Positions 9,737 through 33,007 of a DNA stretch of 33,007 nucleotides are shown in pieces. The notes under the pieces were generated by a model, which saw nothing but the letters and a program-made list of their open reading frames with translations, searched no databases and was not told the DNA's origin. This DNA comes from Clostridia bacterium (GTDB taxonomy: Bacteria; Bacillota; Clostridia; Oscillospirales; RGIG5299). The first letter of the stretch is position 1; each line of letters begins with the position of its first letter. The stretch covers positions 1 through 33,007 of the forward strand of contig JAFVQJ010000011.1 in NCBI GenBank assembly GCA_017504945.1, written 5' to 3'. A program made the position numbers and the translations under genes.

Positions 9737-11005
9737 ATGAGAATTGAAACGAAATGCATTCAGTCGGGCTATAAGCCTAAAAACGGCGAGCCGAGAATGC
9801 TTCCCATAACGCAGAGCACCACCTTTAAATACGACTCTACCGAGCATATGGGCAAGCTCTTTGCCCTTGAGGAGTCGGGCTATTTCTATACACGCCTTGC
9901 AAATCCCACCAACGACAGCGTCGCCGCCAAGATATGCGACCTTGAGGGCGGTTATGCGGCAATGCTCACCTCGTCGGGGCAGTCGGCAATGTTTTATTCG
10001 ATAATCAACATCTGCTCGGCGGGCGACCATTTCGTCTGCTCGGCAGAGATATACGGCGGAAGCCACAATCTTTTCGGCGTATCGCTTAAAAAGCTCGGAA
10101 TCGACGTTACCTTCATAAGCCCCGATTCCACCGAGGAGGAAATTGAGGCGGCAATAAAGGAAAACACCAAATGCCTCTACGGCGAAACGGTTGCAAATCC
10201 CGCCCTTTCGGTATTCGATATTGAAAAATGGGCGCGTGTTGCACACAGAAACGGTATTCCGCTTCTTGTGGATAACACCTTCCCCACACCCGTAAACTGC
10301 CGTCCTATCGAGTGGGGCGCCGATATAGTTATCCACTCCACCACCAAATATCTTGACGGACACGATATGGGCGTCGGCGGCTGTATAGTCGACAGCGGCA
10401 ACTTCGATTGGGAGGCTTCTGGCAAATTCCCCGGTCTTTGCACTCCCGATGCAAGCTATCACGGCGTGGTCTATACCAAGGATTTCGGCAAGGCAGCCTT
10501 TATCACCAAGGCAACGGCGCAGGTCATGAGAGATTTCGGCGCTATCCAGTCGCCCATGAACGCCTTTTTGTTAAATATCGGCATTGAAACGCTTGCACTG
10601 CGTATGGAGCGCCACTGCTTTAACGCGCAGAAGATTGCCGAATATCTTGAAAGCCATCCCAAGATAGCAAAGGTCACCTATCCCGGCTTAAAGAGCAATA
10701 AATACTACGACCTTGCACAGAAGTATATGCCGGGTGGCAGCTGCGGTGTCCTCACCTTCGAGGTAAAGGGCGATATGGCGGCAACCGTTAAGTTTATGGA
10801 TAGCTTAAAGCTTGCCATGATAGCCACTCACGTTGCTGACGCTCGCACCTGCGTGCTTCATCCCGCAAGCCACACTCACCGTCAGCTCTCTCCCTCCGAG
10901 AGAATAGCGGCAGGCGTTACCGACGGACTCATTCGCTTCTCGGTAGGTATTGAGAATTATCTCGATATCATCGAGGATCTGAAGCAGGCGCTTGAAAAGG
11001 TATAA
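9737..11005 (+). CDS. metY: O-acetylhomoserine sulfhydrylase / Cys-Met metabolism PLP enzyme
   Basis: A 422-residue PLP enzyme of the Cys/Met metabolism family. The length and the start RIETKCIQSGYKPKNGEPR fit O-acetylhomoserine sulfhydrylase, which makes homocysteine from O-acetylhomoserine and sulfide. The PLP lysine is K204 in HSTTKYLDGH. The blocks YTRLANPTN and TSSGQSA bind cofactor and substrate. The C-terminus has the ARTCVLHPASHTHRQ block and ends in RFSVGIE. Methionine gamma-lyase and cystathionine-type enzymes share the fold, so the specific reaction is less sure than the family. The gene is single, with its own promoter; its 3' end leads into hairpin array A. Confidence 0.85.
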   Translation: MRIETKCIQSGYKPKNGEPRMLPITQSTTFKYDSTEHMGKLFALEESGYFYTRLANPTNDSVAAKICDLEGGYAAMLTSSGQSAMFYSIINICSAGDHFVCSAEIYGGSHNLFGVSLKKLGIDVTFISPDSTEEEIEAAIKENTKCLYGETVANPALSVFDIEKWARVAHRNGIPLLVDNTFPTPVNCRPIEWGADIVIHSTTKYLDGHDMGVGGCIVDSGNFDWEASGKFPGLCTPDASYHGVVYTKDFGKAAFITKATAQVMRDFGAIQSPMNAFLLNIGIETLALRMERHCFNAQKIAEYLESHPKIAKVTYPGLKSNKYYDLAQKYMPGGSCGVLTFEVKGDMAATVKFMDSLKLAMIATHVADARTCVLHPASHTHRQLSPSERIAAGVTDGLIRFSVGIENYLDIIEDLKQALEKV

Positions 11006-11110
11006 AACAAAACCCCCGAAGAATGTGTGATGTTCTTAGCGGAGAAATAAGATAGGGGTATGGGCGCAGCCCGATGCATTTGTAAAACAAATGCGAAACT
11101 GGCAATAAAT

Positions 11111-11166
11111 ACAGAAAGAGAGAGTCATTCGGAAGCAAAATTCCGTAAGACTCTCTCTTTTTCTGT
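11111..11166. terminator. Terminator-like hairpin beside array A
   Basis: A 16-bp stem (11111-11126 with 11149-11166, two bases bulged) continues into an inner 5-bp stem (11130-11134 with 11141-11145). The 3' arm holds CTCTCTTTTT. It may be the working terminator of the plus-strand metabolic gene. A smaller hairpin lies at 11076-11094. Confidence 0.5.
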
Positions 11167-11174
11167 TGTCTATG

Positions 11175-11343
11175 AGTGATATTCTTTGCTTTCGCAAAGA
11201 GTGATATTGCCCTTGCGGACAGTGATATTGTTCGGCTACGCCTCACAGTGATATTCTATTCGCCCAGAAACTCGCGAAGCGAATACCACTCGGCGTAAGC
11301 CGAATATCACTGCGTAGCAATATCACTCGCCGTAGGCGAATAG
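11175..11343. repeat. Hairpin array A (AGTGATATT units)
   Basis: The 9-mer AGTGATATT occurs at 11175, 11200, 11221 and 11247, and its inverse AATATCACT at 11303 and 11319, with a variant AATACCACT at 11282. Between the units lie seven small palindromes with different stems, for example CTTTGC..GCAAAG and TCGCC..GGCGA. Read on the strand where the unit is AATATCACT, all seven loops are GNA or GNRA: GAAA, GCAA, GTA, GAA, GTAA, GTA, GTA. CTATTCGCC (11256-11264) pairs over a distance with 11335-11343. No gene is seen in 11006-11397. It is not a CRISPR: units are too short and the inserts are palindromes. Confidence 0.85.
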
Positions 11344-11397
11344 AACCGGCGTGATACTCCGATAAGAGTATCACGCCAACTCTTCGGGGGTTTATTT

Positions 11398-15525: not shown

Positions 15526-15732
15526 GATGATATATCTATTCCCCAAACAAATCAAGGCATCAGCCTTGTATTTCATCCGCAACTTGTTGCGGTATATCAT
15601 CAATGCGAAGCATTGTATATCATCAAGCCGCAGGAGGATGCACGCTGGCGCGTGATGAGATACAAGGGCGGCTCGCCGCCCTTGATGATATCCACGACTG
15701 CGTCGTGATGATATGCCAAGCCTGCGGCTTGG
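15526..15732. repeat. Hairpin array B (GATGATAT units)
   Basis: The unit GATGATAT occurs at 15526, 15684 and 15707 and its inverse ATATCATC at 15594 and 15617, with worn copies near 15570 and 15654. Seven palindromes with unrelated stems separate them, at 15553-15568, 15577-15592, 15601-15615, 15641-15654, 15663-15684, 15693-15707 and 15716-15732. An 11-bp long-range pair (15624-15634 with 15721-15731) closes the right half. On the unit-oriented strand three loops are GNA (GAA, GCA, GCA); the other four are not. The unit order is mixed, so this copy looks rearranged compared with arrays A and C. Confidence 0.8.
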
Positions 15733-15735
15733 ATA

Positions 15736-15778
15736 AACAAAAAGAGAACTTTTGGTAGACAAAAGTTCTCTTTTTGTT
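15736..15778 (-). terminator. Terminator hairpin after the tRNA-like remnant
   Basis: A perfect 19-bp stem (15736-15754 with 15760-15778) has a 5-nt loop and A/T-rich arms. On the minus strand it directly follows the CCA-like end of the remnant, just as the hairpin at 15924-15957 follows tRNA-Ala. Confidence 0.8.
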
Positions 15779-32825: not shown

Positions 32826-33007
32826 GACCTGCAATAAAGCAGGTCTGCCGAACGATGTTTGCCCTCACGGGCAAGTGATGTCGGCTTCGCCTAATGATGT
32901 AGCCTACGGCAATGATGTTGTGCCTTCGGCACAGTGGGCAAACATCACATCATTGCGACCATCGGGAGCAACATCATTACGAACGAAGTGAGTAACATCA
33001 CTTTTGC
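32826..33007. repeat. Hairpin array C (AATGATGT units), runs off the window
   Basis: A first 7-bp hairpin (32826-32832 with 32839-32845) precedes the array. Units run direct at 32874, 32893 and 32911 (AATGATGT/AGTGATGT, a partial one at 32854) and inverted at 32947, 32971 and 32995 (ACATCATT/ACATCACT). GATGTTTGCCC (32854-32864) pairs with 32936-32946 over a distance. Palindromes between units differ in stem. On the unit-oriented strand loops are GTGA, GAA, GTA, GAA, ATC and GAA. The last two palindromes carry tandem G.A mismatches at the same place. No gene is seen in 32673-33007. Confidence 0.85.

Follow-up and report, generated by a model that had tools for sequence, protein, structure and literature searches.

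Background

In Gut-1 (Rfam RF01706), three hairpins with c(UNNC)g or c(UNC)g loops are joined by TGA-type linkers. Weinberg et al. 2010 (PMC2864571) listed the motif as certainly RNA, as found in the human gut only and as most likely noncoding. Among hairpin repeats of a different kind, every REPIN family includes a cluster next to the RAYT gene that belongs to it (PMC3116915). The available part of the account of intervening sequences (IVSs) in 23S rRNA genes describes segments with an S23p/IVP open reading frame that replaced the tetraloops of rRNA helices, and in that part hairpin arrays on IVSs are not mentioned (PMC4990558). PF05635, the family of the IVP proteins, resembles Avd of the diversity-generating retroelements (PMC10053308). 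To extrude and be stable, the triloop hairpins in phage N4 promoters require a C-G closing pair and a loop that has G at its 5' and A at its 3' end (PMC4496689).

Here, we examined a window of 33,007 nt, the whole stretch of DNA that was analysed, from the genome of a Clostridia bacterium. The hairpin cluster at 11175-11343, here named array A, is one copy of a small mobile-DNA-like element that is common in gut Clostridia. Nearly all of the genomes used are metagenome-assembled genomes, and the one that includes the window is 86% complete.

Arrays in the window

Array A is made up of two half-arrays in opposite orientation. The left half (11175-11255, + strand) includes four copies of the word AGTGATATT, starting at 11175, 11200, 11221 and 11247, with hairpins between them at 11184-11199, 11209-11220 and 11230-11246 whose loops are TN(N)C on the + strand and GN(N)A on the - strand. 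In the right half (11272-11343, - strand), the words are AATACCACT (11282-11290) and two copies of AATATCACT (11303-11311 and 11319-11327), and the hairpins at 11272-11282, 11291-11302, 11312-11318 and 11328-11338 have GN(N)A loops on the + strand. Comparison of copies identified CTATTCGCC (11256-11264) as the long-range partner of 11335-11343, and the outer pair of this stem is found in C-G, A-T and T-A versions.

The array is enclosed by the two arms of a host terminator. The 5' arm, AAAACCCCCGAAGA (11009-11022, + strand), lies directly 3' of the stop codon of the gene at 9737-11005 and pairs with the 3' arm, TCTTCGGGGGTTTA (11381-11394, + strand). Between the 5' arm and the array are a leader segment (11023-11110) that blastn between copies and alignment by eye found to be common to several family-A copies, and an internal terminator-like hairpin with a T-run (11111-11166, + strand). 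An outer hairpin, GGCGTGATACTC..GAGTATCACGCC (11348-11377), lies on the other side; its stem, like that of the internal hairpin, varies among copies.

On the strand that bears the AATATCACT-type word, the seven loops of array A are GAAA, GCAA, GTA, GAA, GTAA, GTA and GTA, and all seven are closed by a C-G pair. The loop list and strand-linked rule of an earlier, sequence-only reading of this DNA were thus confirmed for array A. Its description of the hairpins as perfect palindromes holds for five of the seven stems; the stem at 11209-11220 has one mismatch and that at 11230-11246 has a core of only 3 bp. Word matches in the window number 16, against 1.4 expected, and 122 word pairs were found genome-wide compared with 5 for the reversed pattern.

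Two further arrays are present in the window. Array B (15526-15732) includes GATGATAT words with its halves in divergent order, and a terminator (15736-15778) lies beyond it on the - strand side. Array C (32850-33000), with AATGATGT words, is cut near the contig end. Many contig ends in this genome fall inside arrays, namely the window itself (32850-33007) and contigs C8, C12, C14, C16, C18, C19, C20, C21, C22, C23, C24 and C29. As so many contigs begin or end inside an array, the repeats appear to break short-read assemblies.

Relationship to Gut-1

The sequence-only reading was aware of no described family of this kind, but RF01706 represents the same motif. At the Rfam gathering threshold nothing was detected at the arrays, and Gut-1 was seen only in E-value mode. 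The two halves of array A match the model on opposite strands, at 11133-11233 (+ strand, 37.4 bits) and 11278-11348 (- strand, 47.9 bits), and array C has a weak match (28.6 bits). The window copies score just under the 50 bit cut-off, which many other copies in the same genome exceed, with scores of up to 89.4 bits. The alignment spanned the whole model (positions 1-77), with its three hairpins and conserved TGA-type linkers present.

There are 48 Gut-1 matches in this genome. Across the order, 31 of the 59 genomes, counting this one, have matches, and in 25 of the 59 they exceed the cut-off. In several places, the matches form head-to-head pairs on both strands. The catalogued motif thus differs from the element described here in being one half of an inverted structure that is multi-copy, dispersed and linked to PF05635 genes, and the loop and wobble evidence presented below favours DNA.

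The loop rule

Hairpins located between consecutive words on the same strand were collected from this genome and from contigs that contain a related array family, here called family D. When unique array hairpins with loops of 3-4 nt were read on the strand of the ATATCA/ACATCA word, 126 of 186 loops were GN(N)A and only one was TN(N)C. A C-G pair closes 189 of all 204 unique array hairpins, and the combination of closing pair and loop bases described for the N4 hairpins is therefore also characteristic of the arrays. In the same contigs, GN(N)A loops made up 8.0% of control hairpins outside the arrays, and TN(N)C loops 6.5%. The Fisher p of about 1e-72 conveys effect size only, as related hairpins are not independent.

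The same bias was seen at held-out loci on contigs not used previously (69 GN(N)A and 1 TN(N)C), including hairpins with stems not seen before (8 and 1, respectively). Where the words were different (TGAAAT, AATGAAG, GTGAAGT, TGAATT, GTTATGA, GCTAAAT, TGATGT and AGTGATATT types), the arrays gave 35 GN(N)A and 2 TN(N)C loops, with about half of the loops of neither kind. Overall, about a third of array hairpins break the rule. Random loops in other arrays of the genome, which the sequence-only reading had named as grounds for refuting its strand-linked rule, were checked for, and the rule withstood the check.

The part of the rule that specified GNRA tetraloops did not hold. The third base of the tetraloops shows no purine preference, with 36 GNYA and 28 GNRA loops (15 and 18 in the held-out set), whereas the control hairpins lean towards GNRA (37:19; p = 0.017). 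As the third base is unbiased, the corrected rule is c(GNA)g or c(GNNA)g on the word strand, not the GNRA typical of RNA. Both d(cGNAg) and d(cGNNAg) are classical stable DNA loops. The strands are not distinguished by nearest-neighbour energies, whether for RNA or for DNA; the difference between them is zero for GNA triloops and is identical for GNRA and GNYA tetraloops.

Which strand folds

An alignment of 29 complete family-D arrays was used to examine covariation and wobble pairs. The words are 99% identical across the alignment and across species, and the stems covary, with 15 pairs changed on both sides (covariation 0.300, compared with 0.129 when shuffled and 0.024-0.045 when slid). Non-Watson-Crick pairs read on the + strand were A.C in the left half (8 A.C, 1 G.T) and G.T in the right half (36 G.T, 1 A.C). 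Hence, on the GNNA strand they are G.T in both halves. It is the direction of this bias rather than a p-value that is the evidence, as the cells are related by descent.

A first wobble count that took in all spacers (60 A.C, 27 G.T) was confounded by stem-base junctions. Counted within spacers, with the search-pattern hairpin excluded, unique stems across families had 12 G.T and 2 A.C pairs, a result that weighs less than the alignment count because the recount was chosen after the first result had been seen. Pairing of left with right words as a backbone was also considered; the words are nearly invariant.

In arrays with a divergent layout the loop rule still tracks the word, in 16 of 20 hairpins with none showing the opposite. 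A switch of strand in mid-array, which the sequence-only reading had taken to suggest oriented single-stranded structures, is predicted by DNA hairpins on opposite strands and not by a single RNA spanning both halves. These findings bear out that suggestion and point to hairpins that behave as oriented single-strand DNA, on opposite strands in the two halves, rather than as one RNA. The option of RNA, also raised in that reading, is disfavoured, as the strand annotated as Gut-1 has UN(N)C loops and a GNRA preference is absent.

Dispersed copies and their insertion sites

Full family-A copies are approximately 390 bp and share 91-96% identity; by blastn, the closest of them (92-96%) are at unrelated sites. 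Their half-arrays are convergent, so that each copy is an inverted palindrome doublet that, like a REPIN, is dispersed. Array A is one of several family-A copies located inside terminator hairpins. In all eight such copies, one of which was joined from two contig ends, the terminator arm on one side paired best with its own partner on the other (scores 11-17), and mismatched combinations of arms scored at most 10.4.

In the congener (G001), both of the orthologous gene ends that were found have intact short terminators with 4 nt loops and no element. The site orthologous to that of array A is AAACGCCCGC-GAAA-GCGGGCGTTT, and the second empty site is AAAATCCCCCGC-TCAC-GCGGGGGATTTT. Short-tract exchange of hairpins between near-identical copies was seen in C14 versus C16 and in C17a versus C17b.

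Family-D arrays lie directly behind terminators. They were found behind a tRNA gene 56 times (39 of 80 copies and 17 of 39 held-out copies), in every case on the strand of the tRNA, though this strict orientation could also reflect selection on the surviving copies. The locations of the element are thus terminator loops or positions behind tRNA terminators, not the helix loops of 23S rRNA.

At the centre of five family-D arrays (L101, L109, L122, L152 and L155) there is the same extra segment, TTATTATGAGCG..GCGAATAACAAGGTTC..GGTTCTTATATCAT, which appears to have been inserted where the two halves meet. The right end of family D, TATATCATTGA, shares bases with the -35 box of the promoter that comes next (e.g. 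L038:1207, L108, L121 and L133), and TTG-N18-26-TANNNT was found downstream of 18 of 51 right ends.

Linkage to PF05635 genes

When proteins encoded near family-D arrays were clustered, one clearly recurrent family was found, at 9 of 77 loci. It is PF05635 (TIGR02436), the 23S rRNA intervening-sequence protein, a four-helix bundle (PDB 2rld). This genome includes three PF05635 genes, each of which starts directly downstream of an array: an A array in C24, a B array in C14 and a canonical TGAAAT Gut-1 array in C16. Inspection by eye of PF05635 loci in relatives and in this genome revealed upstream arrays with family-specific words at 21 of 32, and about a third of the genes inspected have no such array.

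A k-mer array detector independent of the units proved too noisy, with hits in 21% of control windows, and loop-ruled hairpins were counted instead. At least three such hairpins were present upstream of 14 of 32 PF05635 genes, compared with 48 of 535 control windows. Mapped onto the PF05635 protein tree, the words required 11 changes, where the minimum is 10 and the shuffled mean is 26.4. Thus, word and protein are inherited together.

Most arrays have no gene nearby. Those in the window are themselves without a PF05635 gene, which is found in the complete, gene-bearing copies, and the remains of a broken PF05635 gene were seen behind several family-D arrays. In the open literature consulted, we found no description of a link between arrays and IVP genes.

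Discussion

We favour, with moderate confidence, the interpretation that the arrays are the cis-arrays of a small IVP-linked mobile element, with an organisation like that of REPINs and RAYTs but without a Y1 transposase. The complete element would consist of an inverted hairpin array, a promoter and a gene for a PF05635 four-helix bundle (IVP/S23, Avd-like), and array A would be a gene-less copy. The c(GN(N)A)g loop would make each hairpin unusually stable on one strand and probably able to extrude in vivo, and the flanking TGATAT-type word would confer family identity. As the two halves are oppositely oriented, like transposon ends, the arrays may be recognition ends. A cognate IVP pentamer is predicted to recognise word and hairpin, copies would enter or replace terminator loops or the stretch just behind tRNA terminators, and gene-less copies would be mobilised in trans. 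For strand transfer, the element would have to rely on a nuclease, recombinase or reverse transcriptase of the host. Against a mobile element, neither transposition nor excision was seen, and no strand-cutting enzyme is encoded. The hairpins and PF05635 genes that do not fit the pattern, the lack of a gene near most arrays and the failure of the energies to separate the strands also count against it.

Were Gut-1 instead a genuine structured noncoding RNA made from the TGATAT strand, the hairpins and linkers would be its fold and the copies paralogous RNA genes. The strong stem covariation, the Rfam entry with its authors' verdict (PMC2864571), and the occurrence of arrays after terminators and in a fixed orientation relative to tRNA genes all fit such an RNA, but we regard it as unlikely. 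The TGATAT-strand loops are UN(N)C, neither strand shows a GNRA bias, the loop rule and the wobble strand switch in mid-array and track the word rather than the direction of transcription, the matches lie head to head on both strands, and the arrays are directly behind terminators. Somewhat less likely again is a regulatory leader, in which the array would control the PF05635 gene and its neighbours as an operator or attenuator and solitary arrays would be remnants left by decayed genes. The position of an array between a terminator and the promoter of a PF05635 gene, and the gene remains behind family-D arrays, would be expected, but family-A copies are within the terminator loops of convergent or unrelated genes, and these highly similar copies far outnumber the genes.

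The proposal in the sequence-only reading of a REP/Y1-type transposase was not supported. PF01797 (Y1_Tnp) was found neither in this genome, at its 86% completeness, nor in the congener, and it is absent from the array-rich genomes G029, G004 and G058, which have about 90-120 array pairs each. Arrays are somewhat more numerous in Y1-positive genomes (medians 36 versus 17; p = 0.016), an excess that probably reflects general mobile-element load. This excess and the inverted hairpin organisation are what would be expected if the repeats were REP/REPIN-like and a Y1 (RAYT) transposase, its gene located elsewhere or absent from the assembly, moved them; with Y1 lacking from these genomes, and with PF05635 as both the linked gene and the one that the words track, we consider this very improbable. 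We give slightly less credence still to an origin without function, in which template switching perfects the palindromes and ordinary recombination spreads the repeats. Perfect stems of unrelated sequence and the short-tract exchange between near-identical copies are compatible with it, but instant correction would not give G.T intermediates biased to one strand, and the near-invariance of the words across species and the tight PF05635 linkage also speak against it.

The IVP-linked element resembles REPINs and RAYTs (PMC3116915) in its inverted hairpin repeats in extragenic DNA, its compensatory stem changes and the pairing of each family with a single gene copy, as in the three array families beside the three PF05635 genes of this genome. 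It differs in that a PF05635 gene takes the place of the Y1 tyrosine transposase, and in that an array has 6-8 hairpins, the stems of which vary whereas the linkers are fixed. With the 23S rRNA IVSs, as described in the available part of PMC4990558, it shares the protein family and an insertion that replaces a hairpin loop and has complementary arms at its borders, but the targets here are DNA transcription terminators rather than rRNA helices. The hairpins of the N4 vRNAP promoters (PMC4496689) are also stable on one strand only, through a C-G closed loop with 5'G and 3'A, and have variable stem positions; here, there is no promoter or vRNAP context, the arrays are chromosomal with multiple hairpins, and tetraloops occur besides triloops. 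Unlike in diversity-generating retroelements, no template and variable repeat arrangement was seen at the array loci inspected.

A broader reading, which we offer tentatively and think rather doubtful, is that these arrays belong to a new class of bacterial mobile element in which IVP pentamers recognise family-specific words and extruded c(GN(N)A)g hairpins and drive insertion into hairpin loops via host strand-transfer enzymes. The targets would be terminators and, by extension, rRNA helices; Gut-1 would be a DNA end-array and the 23S rRNA IVSs products of the same process.

If the IVP-linked interpretation is correct, a catalogued RNA family would become a DNA structure, by a test of loop chemistry and wobble strand that could be used on other candidate RNAs. 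PF05635/IVP/S23, the function of which has been unknown since the 23S rRNA IVSs were described, would gain a cognate nucleic-acid target open to assay, and the location of IVSs in hairpin loops would be easier to explain. The linkage suggests a REPIN-like partnership of gene and array that is built on a different protein.

Other contexts of PF05635 genes

A phage origin was considered and rejected, as family D is absent from IMG/VR and PF05635 relatives were found in only three viral contigs. Two records from human faeces labelled 'Bacteriophage sp.', L253 (MT835815.1) and L254 (MT835590.1), include an array and a PF05635 gene, in one case behind a tRNA gene, and may be bacterial contigs.

In other phyla and in some relatives, PF05635 genes are flanked by short tandem-repeat arrays, mostly of 7 bp units and often inverted between the two sides, such as (AATTCGT)n..(ACGAATT)n in Nostoc and (TTAGTGA)n..(TCACTAA) in Bernardetia. 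Loci of this type are L246 and L247, together with L250, L251, L252 and L256 in plasmid records. It may be that the hairpin arrays are a variant of a more widespread arrangement of repeats with an IVP gene. PF05635 genes were also found amid defence genes, as if inserted into operons: between cas2 and cas1 at L255 (Anabaena pANACY.01), between drmD and a MmeI-type enzyme gene at L256 (Planktothrix p1), and between hsdS and hsdR at L249 (a Monoglobus plasmid).
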